From Kordiimonas marina (GTDB taxonomy: Bacteria > Pseudomonadota > Alphaproteobacteria > Sphingomonadales > Kordiimonadaceae): DNA of 64,000 nucleotides. Under the pieces are notes generated by a model. The model was given only the letters and a program-made list of their open reading frames with translations. It made no database searches and was not told where the DNA came from. Made by a program: the position numbers and the translations under genes. The DNA lies in contig NZ_JAINDF010000003.1 in the NCBI RefSeq assembly GCF_023006325.1, positions 124,001-188,000 on the forward strand, given 5' to 3'. Positions 5,289 through 16,865 of this stretch are shown piece by piece (positions within the stretch are counted from its first letter, which is position 1; each line of letters opens with the position of its first letter).

Positions 5289-5682
5289 CGGTGGTCTCGC
5301 TTTGGTTTTGTCGTCTGGCGGTTATTATTGTGTTTGTCGTCTGCACGGACTTTCGGGGCCATGACGTCCGTTAAAGTCGCATTTTCTTGGACAAAGATCA
5401 TGTCAAAATCGCGACATTCAAGTCTAGCGCGTATTTTTGGTCCCGGAAAGGCAGGCTTCATGCCATGACGTATCATGACAGAATCATAATGACGGTGGCG
5501 TGACAACTGAACAAAATTTCTGGCGCTCGGGATAGACCGATTACGCGTTTGACGCAACCCCACAGAAGGTCGCAAGCTGCATTCTGACAGGATTGACCGG
5601 CGTCAATGGCGCCGAGGCCTGAGAGAGTATCATGAGCGCCAAACAAGCCTTTCCATGACAGCACGATACGGGAGCACACACC
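5289..5682. other. Intergenic region between divergent GT operon and ppsA
   Basis: 394 bp without a supportable gene. It carries the control sequences of ppsA, including the FixK/FNR-like box at 5593-5606 and the purine-rich ribosome site GGGAG at 5670-5674. Presumably it also holds the promoter of the leftward glycosyltransferase pair, for which I see no clear motif. Confidence 0.7.
5593..5606 (+). promoter_or_regulatory. FixK/FNR-like box upstream of ppsA
   Basis: TTGACCGGCGTCAA is a perfect inverted repeat of TTGAC around a four-base spacer, matching the FNR/FixK/FnrL consensus TTGAY-N4-RTCAA. It ends 76 bp before the ppsA ATG, a usual distance for class I or II activation by this family. 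Regulation is inferred; no transcription start is known. Confidence 0.75.
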
Positions 5683-8112
5683 ATGAACCGGCAGGCCGCC
5701 TTAACCCTTTCCTTTGACAGTATGTCCCTTGACGACCTGGCGCTTGTAGGCGGCAAAAATGCCTCCCTGGGGGAACTTACCCGTAGCTTGCCGAAGGACG
5801 GGATCGGGGTCCCGCCGGGTTTCGCGGTAACGACGGAAGCCTTCCGCCTGTTCCTGGATCAGGACGGCCTGCGGGAGAAAGTTACGGGCCTTCTGGAGGG
5901 ACTCGACAAATCGGACATGCGGGCCTTCCAGGCGACAGGGCAAAAAATCCGCGACGCTGTTCTCGCCACCAATATACCCGAAGGCGTCGCCGATGCGATC
6001 CGGAAAGCCTATCGCGACTTATCGGAGAAGGTTGGCCGCCCTGTCAGTGTTGCCGTGCGCTCAAGCGCCACGGCGGAAGACCTGCCTGGCCTTTCCTTCG
6101 CAGGCCAGCATGACAGTTACCTTTTCATTGAAGGGGAAGAGGCACTTCTGGATGCGACCCGCCGCTGTTTTGCCTCCCTCTATAACGACCGGGCGATTTC
6201 ATACCGTATCGACCAGAAGGTTGATCATATGGCGGTGGCGATCTCGGTGGGCGTGCAGATGATGGTGCATTCCGACACGGCCTCGGCCGGCGTTATCTTC
6301 ACGCTAGACCCTGAAACCGGCTCCCGCCAGAGCGTGCTCATCAGCGCCGTTTACGGCACGGGGGAGGGCATCGTGCAGGGGATTGTCGAGCCCGATGAAT
6401 ATTATGTCCATAAGGCAACCTTCAACGCGGGCTACCGCACCGTTTACCGGCATAAGCGCGGTGCGAAGCTGACCAAATTGATCGGTGGCGGTGACGACCC
6501 GGCCGCGGCGCCCAAGGAAATACCTGTCCCCACTGAAGACCAGAGCCACTATTGCCTGAGTGATGACGAGATCATGAGCCTCGCTGACGCGGCGCTGGCC
6601 ATCGAAAGCCATTACAGCAGCCATTATGGCCATGAGACCCCCATGGATATCGAATGGGGCAAGGACGGTGTGACCGGCACGCTCTACATCCTGCAGGCGC
6701 GGCCGGAGACCGTGGAGTCGCTTGTGAACCCGAACGAGGTCACGCGCTTTACCCTCAAAGGGACCGGGCCGGTGATCACGTCAGGCCGCGCGGTCGGCAA
6801 GAAAATCGCGTCTGGCACGGCGCGCCGGGTGCTCAGCAAGGATGAGATCGGCGATTTCCAAACCGGGGATATCCTGATTGCTAAAACCACCAGCCCCGAT
6901 TGGGAGCCGATCATGAAACGCGCGGCGGCGATTGTGACCGATCATGGCGGCAGGACATGCCACAGCGCCATTGTCTCCCGCGAATTGGGTATTCCGGCGG
7001 TGGTCGGCACAGGCAATGCCATGGCGGTGATCAAGGACGGCATGGAAGTGACGGTCAATTGTGCGCATGGCGAAACGGGTGAGGTGCTCGACGGGCTCGT
7101 TCCCTTCAGCGTCCAAAAAACCGATATTGGCAAACTGAAGCGCCCCCAGACCGAGATCATGGTCAATATCGCCGACCCGGAACAGGGGTTCCAGATGGGA
7201 ATGCTGCCCAGTGACGGTGTCGGGCTGGCGCGGATCGAATTCATCATCACCCATGCGGTCGGCGTACACCCGATGGCGCTTCTGCACCCGGACAAGGTGA
7301 CGGACGTGGACGCCCGCAAAAACATCGAGGCGCTGACCCGTGATTTTCCGGATGGTGGCGCGTTTTTCGTGAACGCCCTGGCCGAAGGGGTGGCAGCCAT
7401 TGCTGCCAGTTTCCACCCCCGCCAGGTGATCGTGCGCATGTCGGACTTCAAAACCAACGAATATGCAGCGCTTCTGGGCGGGGCTGACTTTGAAAGGGCT
7501 GAAGACAACCCGATGATCGGCTTCCGCGGGGCCGCGCGCTATATCCACCCGGACTATGCCGAGGCCTTCGCGCTCGAATGTGCCGCCATCAAGCGTGTGC
7601 GGGAGGATATGGGGCTCACGAACGTCAAGGTGATGATCCCCTTCTGCCGCTCGATCCATGAAGCCGAAAGCGTGCTGAGGGCCATGGAAAGCCGCGGCTT
7701 GAAACGTGGGGAGAACGGCCTCCAAGTCTACATCATGTGTGAAATTCCCTCGAACGTGCTGTCGATCGATGAGTTCGCCAAGCGGTTTGACGGTTTCTCA
7801 ATCGGCTCCAATGACCTGACCCAACTGGTGCTTGGGGTAGACCGGGACTCCGCCAAGCTGGCAGACACCTTCAATGAGCGCGACCCCGCGGTGAAGAAAG
7901 CAATCTCCATGGCGATTGAAGGCGCGCACCGGGGTGGGCGGCACATCGGTATTTGCGGACAGGCCCCATCCGACTATCCGGACTTCACCCGCTTCCTTGT
8001 CGAGGCCGGGATCGATAGCATCAGTGTCACCAGCGACAGCTTCTTCGAAATGTTCGATATCGCCGCCCGTGCAGAAGCCGACCTGCCCGTAAAGAAGGTC
8101 GTGGGGGATTGA
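5683..8112 (+). CDS. ppsA: Phosphoenolpyruvate synthase
   Basis: 809 residues, full family length. Makes PEP, AMP and phosphate from pyruvate, ATP and water, the entry step of gluconeogenesis from pyruvate or acetate. The N-terminal ATP-grasp-like domain includes VAVRSSATAEDLPGLSFAGQ near residue 125. The swivelling phosphohistidine domain has GGRTCHSAIVSRELGIPAV with the catalytic His at about residue 427. The C-terminal TIM-barrel PEP/pyruvate domain ends with ICGQAPSDYP, with the family Cys at about 758. The start at ATG 5683 follows GGGAG. A FixK/FNR-like box lies upstream and another overlaps its stop codon, so it is probably induced at low oxygen with its neighbours. Confidence 0.96.
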   Translation: MNRQAALTLSFDSMSLDDLALVGGKNASLGELTRSLPKDGIGVPPGFAVTTEAFRLFLDQDGLREKVTGLLEGLDKSDMRAFQATGQKIRDAVLATNIPEGVADAIRKAYRDLSEKVGRPVSVAVRSSATAEDLPGLSFAGQHDSYLFIEGEEALLDATRRCFASLYNDRAISYRIDQKVDHMAVAISVGVQMMVHSDTASAGVIFTLDPETGSRQSVLISAVYGTGEGIVQGIVEPDEYYVHKATFNAGYRTVYRHKRGAKLTKLIGGGDDPAAAPKEIPVPTEDQSHYCLSDDEIMSLADAALAIESHYSSHYGHETPMDIEWGKDGVTGTLYILQARPETVESLVNPNEVTRFTLKGTGPVITSGRAVGKKIASGTARRVLSKDEIGDFQTGDILIAKTTSPDWEPIMKRAAAIVTDHGGRTCHSAIVSRELGIPAVVGTGNAMAVIKDGMEVTVNCAHGETGEVLDGLVPFSVQKTDIGKLKRPQTEIMVNIADPEQGFQMGMLPSDGVGLARIEFIITHAVGVHPMALLHPDKVTDVDARKNIEALTRDFPDGGAFFVNALAEGVAAIAASFHPRQVIVRMSDFKTNEYAALLGGADFERAEDNPMIGFRGAARYIHPDYAEAFALECAAIKRVREDMGLTNVKVMIPFCRSIHEAESVLRAMESRGLKRGENGLQVYIMCEIPSNVLSIDEFAKRFDGFSIGSNDLTQLVLGVDRDSAKLADTFNERDPAVKKAISMAIEGAHRGGRHIGICGQAPSDYPDFTRFLVEAGIDSISVTSDSFFEMFDIAARAEADLPVKKVVGD

Positions 8113-8122
8113 CGTCGGTCAA
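8109..8122 (+). promoter_or_regulatory. FixK/FNR-like box overlapping the ppsA stop codon
   Basis: TTGACGTCGGTCAA is a perfect TTGAC inverted repeat with a four-base spacer. It includes the TGA stop of ppsA (8110-8112) and ends 68 bp before the ATG of the next gene at 8191. It therefore looks like a promoter element for that gene rather than for ppsA. Confidence 0.72.
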
Positions 8123-8190
8123 TGCTGGGCTCTCTGCCGCGTTGTAATCTTCATCTCAACGTTGGTCGTTTGAAGGATCGGAGAACAGCC

Positions 8191-8649
8191 ATGAGGACAG
8201 AGATGAAACGCGAATGGATTGTCCTGGCGGATCGCGCTCATGCTAAAATTTACACCCGGCATTATGTGGATGGCGCTATGCAGCAGATTCTGATGCTGGA
8301 ACATCCGGAAGCGCGGAATTTCCAACATGAAGAGGGGACAGACCGGCCAGGGCACAGCCATGGGTCCGCGTCCCATCACCGGTTCGCCTATGAAGACCAT
8401 GCCGACTTCCCGGAGCAGGAAAGCGAGATTTTCCTGCACGCCGTCGCAGATGAAATCAACGAAGCCGCCCAGCAGGAAGAGATGGACAAGGTCATCCTTG
8501 TTGCGCTTCCCAAGACCATGGCGGTTATCAAATCCGGTCTCAATACCCATACCCTCAGCAAAGTCTCGGGCGAGTATGCCAAGAACCTCATTGGCGTCCC
8601 CGAACATACGCTGGGTGACCGGATCGATAAGTTGCAAGAGCTTAAGTAA
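8191..8649 (+). CDS. Host attachment protein family (PF10116 / baeRF-like)
   Basis: 152 residues resembling the small 'host attachment protein' family, related to bacterial archaeo-eukaryotic release-factor-like (baeRF) domains. The N-terminal strand REWIVLADRAHAKIY, a His-rich central loop (roughly residues 50-70) and the C-terminal KVSGEYAKNLIGVPEHTLGDR fit the family. Its biochemical role is poorly known; homologues often sit among stress or low-oxygen genes. An ATG exists at 8122, but the ribosome-site-like GATCGGAGAACAGCC directly precedes ATG 8191, and the 8122 choice would put the start inside the FixK/FNR-like box. It has its own box and a terminator, so it is probably a single-gene unit. 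Confidence 0.82.
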   Translation: MRTEMKREWIVLADRAHAKIYTRHYVDGAMQQILMLEHPEARNFQHEEGTDRPGHSHGSASHHRFAYEDHADFPEQESEIFLHAVADEINEAAQQEEMDKVILVALPKTMAVIKSGLNTHTLSKVSGEYAKNLIGVPEHTLGDRIDKLQELK

Positions 8650-8677
8650 CCCCTGAGTTCCTCCCCAAGCACTCATC

Positions 8678-8714
8678 GGCGGTGTAAAACCTTAGGTTTT
8701 CACCGCCTTTTTCT
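8678..8714 (+). terminator. Rho-independent terminator after host attachment gene
   Basis: A long stem (GGCGGTGTAAAACC pairing with GGTTTTCACCGCC around TTA) is followed by a run of T (8708-8714). It ends the single-gene unit at 8191-8649 and isolates the next FixK/FNR-like box 40 bp downstream. Confidence 0.85.
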
Positions 8715-8753
8715 TTGAGCCGCGCCTGTTCAAGCGTGAAATTTCCTGGCTGA

Positions 8754-8767
8754 TTGACCAACATCAA
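8754..8767 (+). promoter_or_regulatory. FixK/FNR-like box upstream of hydrolase-PRTase-esterase operon
   Basis: TTGACCAACATCAA fits TTGAY-N4-RTCAA with one asymmetric half-site (TTGAC/ATCAA). It ends 83 bp before the preferred GTG start at 8851. Choosing the upstream ATG at 8767 would place the start codon on the box itself, so the box also helps decide the gene start. Confidence 0.7.
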
Positions 8768-8850
8768 TGGCGGACAAGGCTAACGTTCCTATGGTGCCAG
8801 CCATGCTGGCCGCACGTTTTGCGCGACCTGAAAGGGCAAGGAGAATGACG

Positions 8851-9546
8851 GTGCCTGCCAAGAGGTCCAGTACAGCGTATCCTATCTATGATGTTACGGT
8901 TTCTGTCCCCACAGAAAGCGCGATGCTGGAAGGCCGCCTGACGGTGCCTGCCACAGCAACACAGATCGTAATATTTGCGCATGGCAGCGGCAGCAGCCGT
9001 TTCAGCCCGCGAAACTGGTATGTCGCGGAAGTCCTGCATGGCCATAATATCGCGACCCTGCTGATTGATCTGCTCACGGAAGCCGAGGGGCAGGAAGACA
9101 TGCGGACAGGGCATTTGCGCTTCAATATTCCGCTTCTTGCCACACGACTGGCGAACGTCGCCGCGTGGGTCCATGCCACGCAGGAGACACGCCACCTCCA
9201 TATCGGCTATTTTGGCTCCAGCACGGGGGCAGGGGCTGCGCTGATCGCCGCGGCGGACAGTGACGTGCCGATTGCCGCCATCGTTTCGCGCGGCGGCCGG
9301 CCGGACATGGCCGGGGACTATCTGCCCGCCGTCAAGGCACCGACCCTGCTTATCGTCGGCGGGTTTGATACCCAGGTTCTTGCCTTGAACGAGCAAGCCC
9401 TTGCGCATTTGAATAACCAGTCCCGGATTGAGGTGATCCCCGGGGCCACGCACCTGTTCGAGGAACCCGGCACGTTGGAACAGGTCGCCCTGAAGGCCGC
9501 GGAATGGTTCAAGCATCACACGGGGGTCAGCCATGCACTTCCGTGA
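8851..9546 (+). CDS. Dienelactone-hydrolase-like alpha/beta hydrolase
   Basis: 231 residues of alpha/beta-hydrolase fold. The oxyanion region IFAHGSGSSRFSPRN is near residue 41, and the nucleophile elbow is GSSTG with Ser about 124. The likely acid is Asp in VGGFDTQVL and the likely His is in GATHLFEEPG. Substrate unknown. The start is set at GTG 8851, seven bases after AAGGAG (8838-8843); ATG 8845 is too close to that site and ATG 8767 lies on the FixK/FNR-like box. The gene overlaps the following phosphoribosyltransferase by 14 bp, which implies translational coupling. First gene of a three-gene operon, probably induced at low oxygen. Confidence 0.82.
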   Translation: MPAKRSSTAYPIYDVTVSVPTESAMLEGRLTVPATATQIVIFAHGSGSSRFSPRNWYVAEVLHGHNIATLLIDLLTEAEGQEDMRTGHLRFNIPLLATRLANVAAWVHATQETRHLHIGYFGSSTGAGAALIAAADSDVPIAAIVSRGGRPDMAGDYLPAVKAPTLLIVGGFDTQVLALNEQALAHLNNQSRIEVIPGATHLFEEPGTLEQVALKAAEWFKHHTGVSHALP

Positions 9547-10189
9547 CCGGACAGATGCCGGGCAGCAACTGGCCGATGCCCTGCAGGATTATCAGGGGCA
9601 GCAGGGTTTAGTTCTGCTGGCGCTCCCCCGTGGCGGGGTACCTGTTGCCGTTGAAGTCGCCAAAGCCCTCAAAGTTCCGCTTGATGTCATGCTGGTCCGC
9701 AAACTGGGGGTCCCGGGGCAGGAAGAATTAGCCATGGGCGCGATTGCCATGGGCGGCACCACCATCCTCAATGACCAGATCATCCGCCAGCTTGGCCTGG
9801 ATGAGACGGTCGTCACTGCCGCCGTCAGGCGGGAAATGCCTGAACTGGCCCGCCGGAACCAACTGTACCGGGGCGGAAGGCCGATGCCGGACCTTCACGC
9901 CAAGACGGTGATCGTCGTCGATGATGGGCTGGCGACCGGCGCCACCATGAAGGCGGCTGTTGCGGCGCTCAGAAAACTCGGGGCGGACGCGATTATCGTC
10001 GCGGTTCCCGTTGGCGCGTACGAAACCTGTGAAGAACTAGCGGAGCTGGCCGATACGGTCATCTGCCTCTATCAGCCGTCGCCTTTTTGGGGTGTCGGGC
10101 GCTGGTATCAGGTGTTTGGTCAAACCAGCGACCAGGAAGTGATCGATTTGTTGGGCCGGTACGGCCCTGACGGAGGAAATGCCTCATGA
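9533..10189 (+). CDS. Phosphoribosyltransferase-domain protein
   Basis: 218 residues with a type I PRTase fold. The PRPP-binding loop VIVVDDGLATGAT (about residues 126-138) is intact. The N-terminal LALPRGGVPVAVEVA and LVRKLGVPGQEELAMGAIA resemble the orphan PRTases often found beside dienelactone hydrolases in stress or low-oxygen clusters, rather than a defined purine or pyrimidine salvage enzyme. Substrate unknown. It overlaps the hydrolase by 14 bp upstream and the esterase-like gene by 4 bp downstream (ATGA), so all three are probably co-translated. Confidence 0.87.
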   Translation: MHFRDRTDAGQQLADALQDYQGQQGLVLLALPRGGVPVAVEVAKALKVPLDVMLVRKLGVPGQEELAMGAIAMGGTTILNDQIIRQLGLDETVVTAAVRREMPELARRNQLYRGGRPMPDLHAKTVIVVDDGLATGATMKAAVAALRKLGADAIIVAVPVGAYETCEELAELADTVICLYQPSPFWGVGRWYQVFGQTSDQEVIDLLGRYGPDGGNAS

Positions 10190-11535
10190 GCCTGACGGAA
10201 ATGGACAAACTGACGGTCCGCTCCCTGGAGCAGCGCGCGATACCGCTGGGCGGTTCGATGGCGGATTATGACCCGATTATCGAGGCCGCAGAGAACAAGA
10301 CCTATGTCCTGATCGGCGAAGCCTCCCACGGGACGCAGGATTTTTACCGGGCGCGCGCGGAAATCACCATGCGGCTCATTACCGAACTTGGCTATGACGC
10401 CGTCGCTGTTGAGGCTGACTGGCCCGATGCCTATGCCATCAACCAGTATGTCACCGGCACAAGGCCGCATATGTTGCCTGAGGATGCCCTCAAGCGGTTC
10501 GAACGTTTCCCGTCCTGGATGTGGGCCAATACCGAAGTTCTGCACTTTATCCGCTGGCTGCGGGACTATAATGACCGGGGTGGTCGCCTGCAGCCCGTGC
10601 ATTTTTATGGCCTCGATCTCTATAGCATGAACACCTCCGCCCATGCCGTGATCGATTATCTGGACGAGCGCGATCCGCCTGCGGCACAGCGCGCGAGACG
10701 CCGTTATGGCTGTTTGGCCGACTTCATCCACAAGCCGCAACTTTATGGCCGGGCGGCGGAATTCGGCCTCACAGAAAGCTGTGAGCATGAGATCGCCACA
10801 CAGCTTATCGAGCTTCGGCATAAGGCCTACCGTTATATGACCGACAGCGGCATTGTCGACGGCGAGGATTATTTCTGCGCCGAACAGAATGCCAAGCTGG
10901 TCAAGAATGCGGAGGAATATTACCGCACCATGTTCCGGGGCAGGCCGAGCAGCTGGAACCTCCGGGACCAGCATATGTTTTCAGCCCTTGGCGATATCAG
11001 CACGTACTTGAGCGATAGGCTCGGCCGGCCAGCCAAAGTCGTTGTCTGGGCGCACAATTCCCATCTGGGCAATGCCGCGGCCACGGAAATGGCCAAGCGC
11101 GGCGAGTTCAATATCGGCCAGCTCGTTCGGGAAAGCCACGGTGAGGACGCGCTCCTGATCGGCTTTACGACCGCGATAGGCGAGGTTACCGCGGCCTCGG
11201 AATGGGATGAGCCTGCTGGCCGCAAACGTGTTCGCCCACCCTTGGAAGGCAGTTATGAGCGCCTGTTCCACCATGTGAACCATAAGCGCTTCATGCTCGA
11301 CCTGCGTGGCGACAACGCCATGACGGATTTCCTGCTTGAGCCCCGGCTACAGCGGGCAATCGGCGTGATCTACCGACCGGACACCGAGCGGCAGAGCCAT
11401 TATTTCACCGCCTGCCTGCCGGAGCAGTTCGACTTTCTCATCCATTATGATGAAACCGCCGCCCTCAAGCCGCTCGATATTCCAACGCGCTGGCATCAGG
11501 GTGAACTCGACGAAACCTACCCGACGGGTTTGTGA
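10186..11535 (+). CDS. Erythromycin esterase (EreA/ChaN-like) family protein
   Basis: 449 residues. Family hallmarks are LIGEASHGTQDFY (about 43-54, with the catalytic-type His near 48) and VAVEADWPDAYAINQYV with Glu near 75. The VVWAHNSHLGNA motif (about 285-297) carries the second conserved His. Some members hydrolyse the macrolide ring, but most chromosomal ones have unknown substrates, and the operon partners here (hydrolase, PRTase) give no hint of drug resistance. Strong ribosome site GGAGGAAATGCCTC before ATG 10186, and a 4-bp overlap with the PRTase gene. Converges on the ACP gene 9 bp away. Confidence 0.88.
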   Translation: MSLTEMDKLTVRSLEQRAIPLGGSMADYDPIIEAAENKTYVLIGEASHGTQDFYRARAEITMRLITELGYDAVAVEADWPDAYAINQYVTGTRPHMLPEDALKRFERFPSWMWANTEVLHFIRWLRDYNDRGGRLQPVHFYGLDLYSMNTSAHAVIDYLDERDPPAAQRARRRYGCLADFIHKPQLYGRAAEFGLTESCEHEIATQLIELRHKAYRYMTDSGIVDGEDYFCAEQNAKLVKNAEEYYRTMFRGRPSSWNLRDQHMFSALGDISTYLSDRLGRPAKVVVWAHNSHLGNAAATEMAKRGEFNIGQLVRESHGEDALLIGFTTAIGEVTAASEWDEPAGRKRVRPPLEGSYERLFHHVNHKRFMLDLRGDNAMTDFLLEPRLQRAIGVIYRPDTERQSHYFTACLPEQFDFLIHYDETAALKPLDIPTRWHQGELDETYPTGL

Positions 11536-11544
11536 GGTGGCTGT

Positions 11545-11787
11545 TCAGGCCAAAGCCGCCAGATAATCGATCGCGCCCTTGAGCGTTACCATCTTGGCGG
11601 CATCCTTATCCGGAATATTCACGCCCAGCCGTTCATGCAGGCCGATGATGAGGTTCGAGATATCCATGGAGTCCAAATCGAGCGCGTCGCGCAGGTCTTC
11701 GTCTTCCCCAACACCGTCCAGGCTGGCGTCCGGCGCGATTTTGGTGAGCTCTTCGGCAAAAATACGGGTCAGGTCTTCGCGGGTCAT
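11545..11787 (-). CDS. Acyl carrier protein
   Basis: 80 residues, acidic, with a four-helix ACP layout. The phosphopantetheine attachment serine is in DALDLDSMDISNL (Ser about 40). It is the last gene of the leftward acsA-pdhA-pdhB-E2-ACP operon and overlaps the E2 gene by 4 bp (ATGA). This is not the fatty-acid acpP context (no fabD/fabG/fabF nearby), so it is probably a specialised carrier. An ACP next to a lipoyl-bearing E2 could supply octanoyl groups for lipoylation or accept acyl groups from acetyl-CoA; both are inference. Confidence 0.9.
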   Translation of the reverse strand: MTREDLTRIFAEELTKIAPDASLDGVGEDEDLRDALDLDSMDISNLIIGLHERLGVNIPDKDAAKMVTLKGAIDYLAALA

Positions 11788-13052
11788 AGGGCCTCCGGCA
11801 CTTGTAAGAGTTTTTCGATTTCCCTGAGGAACAGAGCGCCGCGCCTGCCATCACTGACACGGTGATCGGCGGCGAGCGTTGCGATGATGGTGGGGGCGGC
11901 ATCCAAGCCGTCTTCTGTAGCCACAGGCCGGGTCTCTAGCGTCCCGAAGCCGATGATTGCTACCTGCGGCGGGTAAATGACGCCGTAAACCTCATCGACA
12001 CCGCGCTCGCCCAGGCTTGTTATCGTAACCGTCGGGTCCGACAGTTCCGAGCTTCTGAGGTGGCCTGTACGCACGCGGCCGACCAGGTCCCGCATCGCCG
12101 CCATCAGGTCATCGAGCGAAAGTGTTTCACAGTCATGAAGCGCAGGGGCAATCAGACCACCACCCCGGATCGCGACCGCAAGCCCGCAATGGACCTCCGG
12201 CACGGCGCGGAAAGTGTCGTTCTCGTAGAAGCCATTGAATTCCGGGTAACGGGTCAGCGCCAGGCTCACGGCCTTGACGAGCAGGGTGCCCATCAGAAGC
12301 CGCGCCTCGGGCGGACGCTCGGCATTTGTCTCATCAAGCCACAGGCTGGCCGCCCGCATATTGATCTGATGCTTGAGGTAATAATGCGGGATTTCCCGTT
12401 TCGATTTCGCCATGGCCTGCGCGATGGCTTTGCGCATTTCCGCGAAATCGAGCCCCGGATGGGCGGATGGCTTGCTTGGGCCGGAGACTGGGGCCTCTTT
12501 CTTGTGGGTGGGACCAACAACCGCTTCCACATCGGCATAGACGATGGCGCCGTCAGGGCCTGAGCCCTTGAGCTTGGCAACGTCGATGCCCTTTTCAGCA
12601 GCCAGCTTGCGCGCGGCCGGGGAGACAGGCTTCTCGCCAGCCTTATCAGGTGCGGCAGGCAGTTCAGTCGGCGCAGGTGTTGGGGCCGAGGTTGGTGCTG
12701 GCGTAGGCGCCTGTGTCGGCTCGGGCGTAGGTTCGGGTGTCGGTTCTGGTGTTGGGGCCGGAGTTGGAGCAGATGTCGGCGCTGGTGCTGGCGCTGGTGT
12801 TTCCTCAGGCTTTGCACCTTCGCCTTCGATTTCAGCGAGCGGTGTGCCCACAGGCACGGTGGTGCCTTCCTCCACCAACAGCTTGGAGACCGTGCCGGTT
12901 TCGAAAATCTCGACCTCGATCGCGCCTTTCTGGGTTTCGACCACGGCGACAATATCGCCGCGTTTGACCGCATCACCCGGCTTCACATTCCATTCAACCA
13001 GTGTGCCAGCGTCCATGTCGGCGCCGAGGGACGGCATTTTGAAGATGCTCAT
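11784..13052 (-). CDS. pdhC: 2-oxo acid dehydrogenase complex E2 (dihydrolipoamide acyltransferase)
   Basis: 422 residues. One N-terminal lipoyl domain has the lipoyl Lys in VVETQKGAIEVEIF (about residue 42). A long Pro/Thr/Ala/Glu linker of near-repeats follows (about 85-135). Next is the peripheral-subunit-binding domain, SPAARKLAAEKGIDVAKLKG. The catalytic domain ends with DHRVSDGRRGALFL, the active-site HRxxDG motif. Start ATG 13052 lies eight bases after GGAAGG; ATG 13058 is too close to that site. It transfers the acyl group from E1 to CoA, and the E1 genes lie just upstream. No E3 gene is in the operon, so E3 must be shared. Pyruvate specificity is inferred from the acsA neighbour. Confidence 0.93.
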   Translation of the reverse strand: MSIFKMPSLGADMDAGTLVEWNVKPGDAVKRGDIVAVVETQKGAIEVEIFETGTVSKLLVEEGTTVPVGTPLAEIEGEGAKPEETPAPAPAPTSAPTPAPTPEPTPEPTPEPTQAPTPAPTSAPTPAPTELPAAPDKAGEKPVSPAARKLAAEKGIDVAKLKGSGPDGAIVYADVEAVVGPTHKKEAPVSGPSKPSAHPGLDFAEMRKAIAQAMAKSKREIPHYYLKHQINMRAASLWLDETNAERPPEARLLMGTLLVKAVSLALTRYPEFNGFYENDTFRAVPEVHCGLAVAIRGGGLIAPALHDCETLSLDDLMAAMRDLVGRVRTGHLRSSELSDPTVTITSLGERGVDEVYGVIYPPQVAIIGFGTLETRPVATEDGLDAAPTIIATLAADHRVSDGRRGALFLREIEKLLQVPEAL

Positions 13053-13068
13053 GGTCATAGCCTTCCGT

Positions 13069-14046
13069 TCAGCGCCCCAGCGCCAGTTTCGCGGCCGCGA
13101 TGATGCGGTCCACTTGTGGCAGCGCCGCGTCTTCCAAGTGTTTGGGGTAGGGGATCGGCACTTCGGCGGAACAAACCCGGCCCACGGGGGCATCCAGTGA
13201 CCAGAAACCGCCTTCCATGATGCGGGCGGAGACTTCTGCGGCGAGGCTGCCGGTCTTCCAGCCTTCATCGACAATGACGGCCCGGCGCGTCTTGCCGACG
13301 GACTTGAGGATCGTGGCGTCATCCAGCGGGCGCAGCACGCGCAGATCGATGACTTCGGCGCTGATACCGTCTTCGGCGAGCTTTTCAGCCGCTTCCAGGG
13401 TCTTGTAGAGCGACCCGCCATAGGTGATGAGGCTGATATCGCTGCCGTTTCGGCGGACCGCAGCAGAGCTCAAGTCTACGGTCGCTTCCTTGTCCAGAGC
13501 TTCAGTGCGGCCATAGAGCATGACGTGCTCAAATATGACCACAGGGTCCGGGTCCTCAAGGGCAGGGCGCAGCATGGCGTAGGCATCCTGCACGGTCGCC
13601 GGCGCCAGAACCTTCAGGCCCGGAATATGGGCATACCAATTTTCCAGGCTGTGGGAATGCTGGGCGGCGAGCTGTCTGCCGGCCCCCGTTGAAATCCGGA
13701 TCACCACAGGAATATTGAGCTGCCCGCCTGACATATGGCGGAAGGTGGCGGCGGTGTTCAGGATCTGGTCAAGCGCCAGCAGGCTGAAATTCACGGTCAT
13801 GATCTCAACGATCGGCTTCATGCCGCCGAGGGCCGCGCCAATACCAGCCCCGGTGAACCCGGATTCGGATAGCGGCGTGTCGCGGACCCGGTCTTCGCCG
13901 AAATCCTCGATCATGCCTTTGGTCACGGCATAGGTGCCGCCGTAGCGCCCGACATCTTCACCCATGATGAAAACCCGGTCATCTGCCGTCATGGCGTCCC
14001 GGATCGCGGCGCCCACAGCATCCCGGTATGTGACTTGTTCGCTCAT
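13069..14046 (-). CDS. pdhB: Pyruvate dehydrogenase E1 component, beta subunit
   Basis: 325 residues, standard length for an alpha2beta2-type E1 beta subunit. [19 protein letters not shown] and [20 protein letters not shown] are typical, as is [20 protein letters not shown]. It shares the active site with E1 alpha. The start ATG at 14046 overlaps the pdhA stop by 4 bp, and the E2 gene follows after 16 bp. A frame open through this gene continues into E2 on another reading frame, but the two proteins are separate. Confidence 0.94.
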
Positions 14047-15035
14047 GATGCCGCTCCCACGTCTTCCAGCAGGGTTTCTACCTCTTCCCAAGGGCTGGCC
14101 TCCGCGAAGGCGACCGCGTCTTCGACTTCCTTGGCGATATCGGCCTCGATGGCTTCAATGTCATCCGCATGGAGAAGGCCGCTTTTGGTTACCCAGTCGC
14201 TGAAGCGCCGGATCGGGCCTTTTTCTTCCCATTCAGTCACCTCGTCCTTGCTGCGGTACAGCTGCGGGTCGAACATGGAATGGGCCCGGAACCGGTAGGT
14301 CCGGCACTCGAGGAAATAGGGGCCTTTCCCGTCCCTGACGGCAGCAACCGCGCGCCGTGCCGCGGCTTCCACATCCACCACATTCATACCGTCCACGGCC
14401 TCAGACGTGATCTTGTAGCTCGCCGCCTTGGCGTGAATGTCGGTTTCGGATTCCGACCGGGCCAACGCTGTGCCCATGGCATAGAGGTTGTTTTCGCAGA
14501 CGAAAAGCACCGGCAGCTGCCAAAGCGCCGCCAGGTTCAGGCTCTCATGGAATTCGCCCTCAGCGGCCGCGCCTTCCCCGAAGAAGCAGACGGTGACGTT
14601 CGGCCGGTTCTGCATCTTGTCCGCGAGCGCCAGGCCGACCGCAAGCGGCAAGCCGCCGCCGACAATGGCATTGCCGCCGTAGAAGCGGTGCTCGGCCGAG
14701 AAAATATGCATGGAGCCGCCGCGCCCTTTGGAGACCCCGCCTGATTTGCCATACATTTCCGCCATGACACCGGTCATCGGCACACCGCGGACGAGGGCAT
14801 GGCCGTGTTCGCGGTAGGTCGCGACGATGGCGTCCTCGGGTGTCAGTGTCTGCATCACACCGGTCGCCACCGCTTCTTCACCGATATAAAGGTGCAGGAA
14901 CCCGCGGATTTTCTCCTGCGTGTAAAGCTCGGCGGCCTTTTCCTCGAACCGGCGGATGCGGAGCATATTGCGCATCAGATCAAGGCAGTGATCGCGCGTG
15001 AGATGCGGTCTGAGGTCCTTATCCTTCGCACTCAT
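14043..15035 (-). CDS. pdhA: Pyruvate dehydrogenase E1 component, alpha subunit
   Basis: 330 residues. The thiamine-diphosphate motif runs [19 protein letters not shown] to [10 protein letters not shown] (about 165-200), and the phosphorylation-loop-like [15 protein letters not shown] lies near 255. It decarboxylates a 2-oxo acid, most likely pyruvate, and passes the acetyl group to the E2 lipoyl arm. It overlaps the acsA stop codon by 4 bp and the pdhB start by 4 bp, so the operon is tightly coupled. Because the canonical PDH operon of alphaproteobacteria sits by enolase and lpd, this may be a second, condition-specific complex. Confidence 0.94.
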
Positions 15036-16786
15036 GAAAATGTCTCCAAGGTCGAGGTATCGCCTTCAGGCAAGCCGAGCTCACGCGCCTTCAGGAGCCG
15101 CCGCATGATCTTGCCTGAGCGCGTTTTCGGGAGGTCGGCGGCAAAGGTGATAAGCCGTGGAGCGACAGCGGACCCCAGTGCGCGCCGTGCATGGGCCATA
15201 ATATCCCGCTCCAGCTCGTCTGACGCTTCATAGCCGTGATGCAGCGTGACATAGGCCTTGACCACTTCACCCGCCCGTTCATCGGGTATGCCGATCACCG
15301 CGGCTTCGGCGACGGCTGGGTGTTCCACGAGCGCGCTTTCCACTTCAAATGGGCCGATAAGGTGGCCGGAGGATTTGATCATGTCATCGGCACGGCCGAC
15401 GAACCAGAAATAGCCGTCCGCATCACGCATGGCGAGGTCACCGGTCAGGTACCAGCCGTCTACGAAGCATTTCTTGTAGCGTTCTTCCTCATGCAGGTAG
15501 CCGCGGAACATGGACGGCCAGCCGGGGCGGAGGGCAAGCTCGCCCACTGCGCCGGTTTCCGTCACATCCTTCAGGCTGCCGTCGGCCTCCCGGTCGACAA
15601 TGCCGGCATCGACGCCGGGCAGGGGACGGCCCATCGACCCGGGTTTGACGTCCCCCACGGCGAAATTGGCGATCATGATCGCGCCGGTTTCGGTCTGCCA
15701 CCAATTGTCATGGAAGGGCTTGCCGAAGACATCGTTGCTCCAGAGCACAGCCTCGGCATTGAGGGGCTCCCCCACGGAGGCAAGGAAACGCAGGCTCATG
15801 AGATCATAGCCTTTGGCAAGGTCCGCACCAGTTTTCATCAGCATCCGGATCGCTGTCGGCGCGCTGTACCACACCGTAACCTTCTGGTCTTGCAATGTTT
15901 TGTACCAGCGTTCAGCGTCGAACTCGGCCTCATCGATGATCATGGTGACCCCGATCGTGAGCGGCGCGATAATGCCGTAAGAGGTGCCCGTTACCCAGCC
16001 AGGGTCCGCCGTGCACCACAGGATGTCGCTTTCATGCAGGTCGAGCGCCAGCTCAGCCGTCGCGTGATGGGCGACCACCGCCTGATGGACATGGATCGCG
16101 CCTTTGGGCTTGCCGGTGGTGCCACTGGTGAAATGCAGGAGCGCCGGGTCCTCTTCCTGGGTGGTGACAGTTTCAAAGTCATCACGGGCACGTTTCATCA
16201 GCCCATCGAAGGACTGGGTGCCTTCCGGCAGATCACCGTCTCCGACAATCAGAACATGCGTGAGCTTGGGCAGGTCGGCTCGGATGGGGGCAACTTTTTT
16301 GCGGTAATATTGCGCGGTGGTCACAAGAACCTGGCCTTCACCGATGCCCATACGGGCTTTCACCGGTTCCGGCCCGAAGGCGGAAAAGAGCGGGGAGAAA
16401 ACGGCGCCACGCTTCAGGGTGCCAAGCGCCGTGATATAAAGCTCAGGCACACGGCCGAGCAGGGCGAAGACACGGTCGCCTTTCTTGACGCCAAGGCTTT
16501 CAAGCGCAGCCGCAAAACGTGCCGTGCGGGTCTTGAGCTCCGCATAGCTGATGTCTGTCACCTCGCCTGATTTGGCGAGCCAGCGAATGGCGGTCTTATC
16601 GCCCTTTCCGTGGCGGACATGCCGGTCCACAGCCTCATAAGCGATATTGAGGCCACCTCCGGCAAGGCCATCGAGCGTCCTACGGGCGCCTTCCCAGGTG
16701 AAGCGCGCACGCACGGCGCCATAATCGTCCATATTGGGTGGGCACTTGGGGTCGTTTTTCTGGTGGATAACTGTCCTGGCTGTCAT
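15032..16786 (-). CDS. acsA: Acetyl-CoA synthetase (AMP-forming acetate-CoA ligase)
   Basis: 584 residues, closer to the short AcsA type (about 570 residues) than to the 650-residue Acs. ANL-superfamily motifs are present: P-loop [18 protein letters not shown] near 210, [10 protein letters not shown] near 355, [20 protein letters not shown] near 440, and the C-terminal catalytic lysine in [12 protein letters not shown] near 560. It makes acetyl-CoA from acetate, ATP and CoA, although a propionate or butyrate preference cannot be excluded. First gene of the operon; ribosome site GGGAGGACC before ATG 16786. A FixK/FNR-like box ends 65 bp upstream. Confidence 0.9.
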
Positions 16787-16851
16787 GGCGGCGGGTCCTC
16801 CCTAACCTTTGCACCGTTATCCTTGGGTACGGGCTAATGCTGGGCGCTACC

Positions 16852-16865
16852 TTGACGCTTGTCAA
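16852..16865 (-). promoter_or_regulatory. FixK/FNR-like box upstream of acsA operon
   Basis: TTGACGCTTGTCAA is a perfect TTGAC inverted repeat with a four-base spacer, 65 bp before the acsA ATG. It is the fourth such box within 11.3 kb, all at similar distances from their genes. Confidence 0.75.

Follow-up and report, generated by a model that had tools for sequence, protein, structure and literature searches.

A block of genes for phosphoenolpyruvate (PEP), acetate and pyruvate metabolism and for proteins of unknown function was examined in a 64,000-nucleotide stretch of the Kordiimonas marina genome (the window; C19:124001-188000 of 3,684,098 bases in 25 contigs), together with the four FNR-type palindromic boxes that lie among these genes. 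The boxes, to which no strand is assigned, are TTGACCGGCGTCAA (5593..5606), 76 bp ahead of the ppsA start; TTGACGTCGGTCAA (8109..8122), which overlaps the ppsA stop codon and lies 68 bp ahead of the preferred baeRF12 start; TTGACCAACATCAA (8754..8767), 77 bp ahead of the preferred hydrolase start; and TTGACGCTTGTCAA (16852..16865), 65 bp ahead of the acsA start. Gaps were counted from the box end to the start codon, and starts were picked by ribosome-binding region and homology. A sequence-only reading had placed TTGAC-N4-RTCAA boxes at 5593, 8109, 8754 and 16852, 65-85 bp ahead of start codons, and had seen no other perfect copy in the window. All four coordinates were confirmed, the gaps to the preferred starts were 65-77 bp, and a TTGAY-N4-RTCAA scan of the 64 kb returned only these four sites. 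The automatic gene caller placed the starts of baeRF12 and the hydrolase at 8203 (gap 80 bp) and 8923 (gap 155 bp), and the longest-ORF (open reading frame) starts at 8122 and 8767, which touch the boxes, are unlikely. A box ending 65-77 bp ahead of the start codon fits class II activation, in which the box would lie near -41. The pattern gave seven strand-matches in the window, corresponding to the four sites, compared with a mean of 0.17 and a maximum of 3 in 100 shuffles. With one mismatch allowed, 8 sites including the four perfect ones were found where 5.0 were expected; the four imperfect sites are at chance level.

The first gene of the block, ppsA (5683..8112, + strand), encodes a PEP synthase of 809 aa that was recognised by Pfam and by the NCBIfam equivalogs NF005057 and TIGR01418, both over the cut-off. 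It is followed on the + strand by a gene for a host-attachment or baeRF family 12 protein (8191..8649, start 8191 or 8203; PF10116 and PF18856 over the cut-off in ORF 8122-8649) and by an alpha/beta, dienelactone-hydrolase-like hydrolase gene (8845..9546; PF01738 at 23.5 bits with a cut-off of 21 in ORF 8767-9546), whose start was picked by eye from the ribosome-binding region. The hydrolase gene overlaps by 14 bp a phosphoribosyltransferase (PRTase)-like gene (9533..10189, +, 218 aa; PF00156 over the cut-off), for which no listed NCBIfam model reached its cut-off. This in turn overlaps by 4 bp a gene of the erythromycin-esterase superfamily (10186..11535, +, 449 aa; PF05139 at 434 bits). Judging from these overlaps, the three genes probably form an operon led by the hydrolase. 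Assignment of the EreA-like protein as a macrolide-resistance esterase was rejected, as the EreB and EreD models gave 31.3 of 750 and 27.5 of 800 bits. The fourth box faces a gene series on the - strand consisting of acsA (15032..16786), an AMP-forming acetate--CoA ligase in its 584-aa form (NF003313 at 897 bits, cut-off 729); a pdhA-type E1 alpha gene (14043..15035, TIGR03182 over the cut-off), one of two genome copies, the other being at C19:61747; a pdhB-type E1 beta gene (13069..14046, PF02779 and PF02780, NF006667 over the cut-off); a lipoyl E2 acyltransferase gene (11784..13058; PF00198, PF00364 and PF02817 over the cut-off in ORF 11784-13421), which NCBIfam E2 models match below their cut-offs; and an acyl carrier protein (ACP) gene as the last member (11545..11787). 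The ACP scored over the cut-off for PF00550 and carries the DSM serine motif by eye, and no NCBIfam ACP model reached its cut-off. The block was not set apart by its GC content (60.3% versus 58.4% and 59.0% in the flanks).

FNR-type boxes across the genome

The genome-wide count proposed in the sequence-only reading gave 33 TTGAY-N4-RTCAA palindromes, compared with 3 for the reversed control pattern. The surroundings of all 33 boxes were gene-called with a simple hexamer caller. Of the boxes, 23 were found 30-110 bp ahead of a called start, compared with 1,154 of 16,150 random positions (7.1%), and three fell inside called genes, compared with 88.7% of random positions. Pfam and NCBIfam analysis of the targets identified hemN (an NCBIfam equivalog), a DsbD-like gene followed by COX1, OmpW, a NIT-CRP regulator, SCP2 (UbiT-like), 2Fe-2S thioredoxin-like, RpoH-like sigma, Usp, GlgC-like, flavodoxin-fold, Hsp20, AMP-phosphorylase family, P-type cation ATPase and DUF465 genes. 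One of the three boxes inside called genes is that of hemN, whose called start falls within the box; since residue 32 is the first to be covered by the model match, the true start probably lies some 60-80 bp on, downstream of the box. Gene sizes were the basis for tentatively assigning the nar, formate dehydrogenase and ubiUV operons, together with most of cco. No Pfam family was found for 7 of the 31 scanned proteins (one FNR-box neighbour each, or adjoining regulators and oxidase genes). The presence of hemN, a cytochrome oxidase cluster, a probable nitrate reductase operon, a ubiT-like gene and Hsp20 among the targets points to a low-oxygen regulon. The box at C11:157785 (L036) lies 90 bp ahead of the RpoH-like gene, which suggests low-oxygen control of a heat-shock sigma factor. 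Two further boxes adjoin less characterised targets: a gene resembling the ribosome hibernation factor HPF lies 190 bp from box C18:83190 (L041), behind a doubtful 46-aa ORF, and box C11:297224 (L038) lies 62 bp ahead of a gene for a 240-aa protein without a Pfam or NCBIfam match.

The concentration of boxes in the block held in so far as 4 of the 33 lie in 11.3 kb (simulated P 0.003), but with 33 boxes in the genome the block is not their only cluster, since four more were found at C11:311-344 kb. Furthermore, the cluster extends upstream of the window, with boxes at C19:111399 and C19:108189 (12.6 and 15.8 kb from its start); six of the 33 boxes thus fall in 32.7 kb, for which the simulated genome-wide probability was 0.00015. 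Both the 11.3-kb and the 32.7-kb interval were chosen post hoc, after inspection of the data. Box C19:108189 precedes an Hsp20 gene, and box C19:111399 precedes genes for an AMP/thymidine phosphorylase (NF003338 at 716 bits, cut-off 434; the AMP-phosphorylase model TIGR03327 at 504 bits, cut-off 535), a phosphoribosyl pyrophosphate (PRPP) synthase-like protein and a beta-CASP protein. A Na+-type ATPase operon with AtpR starts 75 bp after the beta-CASP gene and may be co-transcribed with the AMP-phosphorylase operon. The best NCBIfam match of the beta-CASP protein (C19:113869-115572, L026:13869-15572) was the type VII CRISPR Cas14 MBL-CASP model, at 340 of 800 bits and below the cut-off, although its gene belongs to an operon for nucleotide salvage. 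The block had been described as a compact carbon and stress regulon; it runs on upstream and belongs to the 33-box genome set, and it is better read as an accessory island that is patchy in the genus and has parts on plasmids, as the comparisons below suggest.

The closest precedent comes from Bradyrhizobium diazoefficiens, for whose FixK2 regulon Table 2 of PMC9104804 gives box positions of -47 for ppsA, -69 for a host attachment protein, -86 for Hsp20, -72 for a universal stress protein (USP) and -74 for a thymidine phosphorylase operon. The K. marina set thus shares with it the box type, similar distances, and the ppsA, host attachment, Hsp20, USP and AMP-phosphorylase parts. The FixK2 operon bll3117-3116-3115, encoding a thymidine phosphorylase family protein, a ribose-phosphate pyrophosphokinase and an MBL-fold hydrolase, has its counterpart in K. 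marina, and the likeness extends to hemN2, cbb3 oxidase and DnaJ genes (PMC9104804, PMC6515984). However, neither the acsA-pdhA-pdhB-E2-ACP operon nor a separate hydrolase-PRTase-EreA operon is named in the main texts of PMC6515984 and PMC9104804, the supplements lying outside this comparison. FixK2 itself acts downstream of FixLJ, with a response to C183 oxidation, whereas the K. marina candidates described below carry C-terminal cysteines. The FNR/FixK-type sites and the putative low-oxygen programme envisaged for the block are accordingly well supported by their genome-wide company and by this precedent.

It is therefore probable that the four palindromes are CRP/FNR-family activator sites of a genome-wide low-oxygen regulon, and that the block represents, within the window, part of a low-oxygen survival island spread by horizontal transfer; this judgement applies to the regulon and the island. 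Its members would be Hsp20; AMP phosphorylase, PRPP synthase-like and beta-CASP with the Na+-type F-ATPase; ppsA; baeRF12; hydrolase-PRTase-EreA-like; and acsA-pdhA-pdhB-E2-ACP. Under low oxygen the dedicated pyruvate dehydrogenase (PDH) would turn pyruvate into acetyl-CoA, and the co-transcribed AMP-forming AcsA would run backward, converting acetyl-CoA, AMP and pyrophosphate (PPi) into acetate and ATP. PpsA and the AMP-phosphorylase operon would act on the same PEP/AMP pool, while resting cells would be protected by Hsp20 and baeRF12.

Candidate regulators with C-terminal cysteines

To find candidate activators, HTH_Crp_2, cNMP_binding and an FnrL model were searched over the K. marina genome. 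HTH_Crp_2 gave 10 matches, three of them over the cut-off (P0001, P0002 and P0003), and six cNMP_binding proteins were found; no FNR with N-terminal cysteines occurred among these three and six proteins. The likely activators are P0001 (C11:331897-332646), encoded near hemN, and P0002 (C18:161059-162723; L032:16059-17723, - strand), in which a NIT domain is fused to CRP; both have the FNR-type recognition helix ETFSR. A perfect box separates the P0002 gene from a divergently oriented, probable narK-nar operon. P0003 was rejected for lacking an ExxSR helix and C18:133417 for lacking an ETxSR helix, and C19:511293 (cNMP with an FHA-like part) and C19:323692 (channel-like) were set aside on protein reading, with labels given by eye. 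P0001 was also the best match to the FnrL model, at 24.3 bits against a strict cut-off of 300 bits that was reached by none of 14 control genomes, and P0001 and P0002 scored 45 and 40 of 300 bits with a Caulobacter FixK model.

P0001 lacks an N-terminal cysteine cluster. An alignment with 19 homologues (36-80% identical to P0001) showed that C164, C233, C236 and C242 were invariant in all 20 sequences; the L157 protein, outside this alignment, has the same tail. The aligned homologues and the distant set were drawn from L153-L173 and L213-L230. Matches of 53-81% to P0001 were present in 16 of 18 other genus genomes, the two without a match being 76% complete, and homologues at E up to 1e-25 occurred in 39 of 289 genomes of the class. 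Among 18 class-level homologues that were aligned, 6 had the C-terminal CxxC-x5-C tail, all with a cysteine at 164, whereas 10 of the 12 distant ones without the tail lacked Cys164 and two (L215 and L228) had it (Fisher p 0.0015, uncorrected for relatedness). The invariant Cys164 of the P0001 group suggests a fourth cysteine ligand in the place taken by Asp in Bacillus-type Fnr. In 8 NIT-CRP-like proteins, of which P0002 was scanned for the NIT domain, C521, C524, C532 and C540 were invariant, and the residue of P0002 that corresponds to position 164 is Trp (by eye), as if the fourth ligand had been swapped between a mid-protein site and the tail in the two regulator groups.

In the CRP/FNR family the cluster is N-terminal in Gram-negative FNRs and lies in the C-terminal domain in Gram-positive ones, according to a 2026 paper (PMC12937710), and alphaproteobacterial regulators are divided into FnrN with these cysteines and FixK/FixKf without them (PMC4999443). 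Bacillus Fnr offers the closest parallel: its cysteines are C219-x2-C222-x4-C227 in B. cereus, and C227, C230 and C235 with D141 bind [4Fe-4S] in B. subtilis (PMC3520743). P0001 likewise is a CRP/FNR protein with a C-terminal cysteine extension, here the triad C233, C236 and C242. It differs in the x5 spacing of CxxC-x5-C and in the invariant C164, and the NIT-CRP group differs in having four tail cysteines. The four invariant cysteines are placed much as in Bacillus Fnr, which makes direct sensing of oxygen probable, by way of a C-terminal site that holds Fe-S or another metal. The FNR-type sites and recognition helices agree with the FNR/FixK control proposed in the sequence-only reading, but with these C-terminal cysteine clusters the regulator is probably no ordinary FNR or FixK. 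Neither a NIT-CRP fusion nor a proteobacterial FNR with C-terminal cysteines was found described in the literature searched, which is not proof of absence. The structure model of P0001 has a CRP/FNR fold with a mean pLDDT of 86, and its best Foldseek match was 3h3z (A. fischeri FNR, TM about 0.8).

A regulator of the nitric-oxide or nitrate response, either DNR/NnrR-like or the NIT-CRP protein, might instead act at the sites, in which case the block would answer nitrogen oxides. We consider this improbable, even though a box separates the NIT-CRP gene from the probable narK-nar operon and P0001 is closer to Pseudomonas DNR (2.5e-26) than to A. fischeri FNR (5e-12 to 1.3e-11). A haem-based DNR would not require a four-cysteine pattern, and the box targets include hemN, oxidase and stress genes. 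Furthermore, related Bradyrhizobium genes respond to FixK2 and microoxia (PMC6515984, PMC9104804).

Distribution in relatives and on plasmids

The gene set sought in other alphaproteobacteria recurred in relatives of K. marina, but in a patchy manner and with varying content. EreA homologues (E up to 1e-20) were present in 29 of 196 genomes of the order and absent from all 18 other genus genomes listed. ppsA (E up to 1e-100) occurred in 6 of 59 relatives including K. marina, and within the genus in K. marina and G085 only. All 59 relatives had pdhA matches at E up to 1e-60, mostly to a more distant copy that is presumably housekeeping, whereas close pdhA genes (65-73%) were found in G085, G012 and G010; ppsA and close pdhA were each present in one of the 18 other genus genomes searched. 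Boxes were counted in stretches of relatives picked by EreA, ppsA, pdhA or regulator matches. A single 50.5-kb contig of G085 (C68:1-50551, L186-L188), which holds acsA-pdhA-pdhB-E2-ACP, ppsA, baeRF12, AMP phosphorylase and beta-CASP, carried 13 of the 46 perfect boxes of that genome. Seven boxes each were found in a 49-kb stretch of G064, which surrounds EreA-PRTase-baeRF12 and hydrolase-ppsA with Hsp20, and in a 35-kb stretch of G055 surrounding baeRF12, DnaJ and the AMP-phosphorylase operon; three lay in 50 kb of G027 around Hsp20 and hydrolase-PRTase-EreA, three in 34 kb of G019 and two in 18 kb of G010. Matches to the FnrL model on these stretches (G085 C68:16700, G064 C1:1820623 and G027 C1:1223260) showed no ExxSR helix in the motif reading.

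Boxes were also searched within 300 bp upstream or 30 bp inside homologues. For each protein, the top match at a locus was used (E up to 1e-15), with starts extrapolated from the alignments; alignments beginning past query residue 80 and starts with less than 150 bp upstream were dropped. A perfect box was found at 21 of 274 homologue starts in all sets, compared with one match for five control patterns together. By set, the numbers were 15 of 77 on contigs of the order, 4 of 21 on plasmids and 2 of 176 at named loci, indicating that the gene set is broad and its FNR control lineage-bound. In the relatives, boxes preceded baeRF12 in 3 of 3 cases (74-76 bp), AMP phosphorylase in 2 of 4 (61 bp) and Hsp20 in 2 of 5.

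The named loci were the best 80 of 586 confirmed EreA stretches, from many phyla. Homologues of the PRTase (50), the hydrolase (44) and Hsp20 (14) accompanied EreA in these 80, and one Terriglobia metagenome-assembled genome among them also has acsA-pdhA-pdhB-E2-ACP in identical order. With boxes at 2 of 176 starts in these best 80 of 586 loci, no link between the EreA module and the FNR box was seen across phyla. Plasmid records matched acsA in 71 cases and EreA in 176, and islands were examined in 8 of the 30 acsA records among the matches listed. The order acsA-pdhA-pdhB-E2-ACP was kept in all eight, with pdhA and pdhB annotated as a single long gene in the Sulfitobacter, Tropicibacter and Leisingera plasmids. 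It was accompanied by an N-ATPase in Sulfitobacter; by ppsA, Hsp20, Usp and a Crp/Fnr regulator in Leisingera; by Hsp20, Usp and PRTase-EreA in Rhodococcus qingshengii; and by EreA, Usp, ppsA, AMP phosphorylase and Hsp20 in Cupriavidus KK10.

Several observations weigh against the regulon and island as proposed. Perfect boxes are missing from 253 of the 274 homologue starts, in part because many of these starts lie inside operons or come from lineages without FNR. Such a box precedes acsA in one of the eight plasmids, Sinorhizobium fredii pSF45436d. G012 has the acsA-pdh-ACP operon and ppsA, yet no perfect box in 57 kb, and none lies in the 1.26 kb upstream of the same operon on its contig in G010. 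The cysteine tail of P0001 was modelled as disordered, with residues 238-249 below pLDDT 50. Moreover, an ordinary FNR with an N-terminal CxxC-x7-C occurs beside the new type in 5 of the 18 other genus genomes (G067, G029, G055, G052 and G070), and also in G064, so the genus box set need not have evolved under P0001. Finally, 10 of the 33 K. marina boxes lie outside the 30-110 bp range and three lie within called genes. These last counts would also favour a reading in which the palindromes arose by chance or are generic promoter elements beside genes with nothing in common, a negligible prospect given the 33 boxes versus 3 controls, the promoter placement of 23 of 33 versus 7% and the spacing kept ahead of baeRF12 in relatives; a chance origin was rejected on the window shuffles, genome counts and promoter placement.

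Proposed direction of AcsA and parts shared with hypoxia gene sets

Within the proposed regulon, PDH and Acs from a single operon can act one after the other only when Acs runs toward acetate and ATP, and flux of acetyl-CoA, AMP and PPi in this direction is given a chance just short of even. Such backward operation of Acs is established in Syntrophus, where S. aciditrophicus Acs1 is likewise an AMP-forming Acs in a genome without acetate kinase (PMC4992975); the K. marina Acs differs in sharing its operon with PDH and ACP, and its direction is a prediction. Acetate kinase was not found in the K. marina genome by a search that detects it in 9 of 14 control genomes, so acsA-pdh may yield ATP from acetyl-CoA, AMP and PPi. 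The genome does hold a separate acetate--CoA-ligase-like gene (the next best acsA match, C21:45497, 516 bits), and AcsA may simply assimilate acetate. Backward Acs is also not needed on the Sulfitobacter plasmid, where phosphate acetyltransferase and acetate kinase stand beside acsA.

A forward-running AcsA is the main rival, possible though less favoured. It would salvage excreted or imported acetate at low oxygen and, with the extra PDH, fill an acetyl-CoA pool serving storage polymer or lipid synthesis, with the ACP as part of the route. AMP-forming Acs normally assimilates acetate, and a FabI gene lies within the Sulfitobacter island. However, this direction leaves unexplained why PDH shares an operon with Acs, as both would then make acetyl-CoA. 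Nor was an acetate kinase found in K. marina that could supply acetate through the usual route. In B. diazoefficiens, microoxia induces a cation/acetate symporter, which is a direct FixK2 target, together with isocitrate lyase and phaC2 (PMC6515984), as salvage would lead one to expect. The Sulfitobacter genes lie at L202:7707-10291 on the plasmid of Sulfitobacter sp. SK012, where an enoyl-CoA hydratase/phosphate acetyltransferase gene and an acetate kinase gene are located just ahead of acsA-pdh-ACP, the reverse of what was found in K. marina.

The regulator type and the energy route are the parts that merit new experiments. A bolder reading, offered tentatively and as a whole rather doubtful, is that a mobile low-oxygen island, occurring in changing combinations in alpha- and betaproteobacteria, actinobacteria and acidobacteria, conserves energy via AMP and PPi and answers to a new Gram-negative class of oxygen sensors in the genus. 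Energy would come from the dedicated PDH with backward AcsA, PpsA, AMP phosphorylase and Na+-ATPase. The sensors would be CRP/FNR proteins with a C-terminal four-cysteine Fe-S site, and the NIT fusion would read oxygen and nitrate together. Apart from this bolder reading, the regulon and island as proposed make a clear prediction, ATP formation from AMP and PPi by the dedicated PDH-Acs operon, and point to Gram-negative FNR relatives with conserved cysteines at the opposite end of the protein. They also provide a testable low-oxygen context for genes of unknown function, namely the EreA-like, PRTase and hydrolase genes, baeRF12 and the ACP in the PDH operon, and connect the gene set of rhizobial FixK2 with that of mycobacterial DosR by common parts that occur on plasmids.

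The DosR regulon of Mycobacterium tuberculosis includes a hypoxia-induced operon encoding the USP Rv2028c, the PRTase and erythromycin-esterase-superfamily protein Rv2030c and the Hsp20 Rv2031c (PMC4410610). The USP, PRTase/EreA-superfamily and Hsp20 parts are thus shared with K. marina, whereas the regulator and DNA site differ. On the Rhodococcus plasmid (L201), the scanned island of which holds acsA-pdh-ACP, EreA, Hsp20 and USP, DosR-like sites did not exceed chance (one match at 3 mismatches, 2.2 expected). On plasmid p195_2 of Bradyrhizobium sp. 195, a gene annotated as protein-L-isoaspartate O-methyltransferase (L231:5302-7293) covers the EreA-like match. An isoaspartate methyltransferase is also the name of bll4651, marked as a direct FixK2 target in PMC6515984, and bll4651 may accordingly hold an EreA-like domain.

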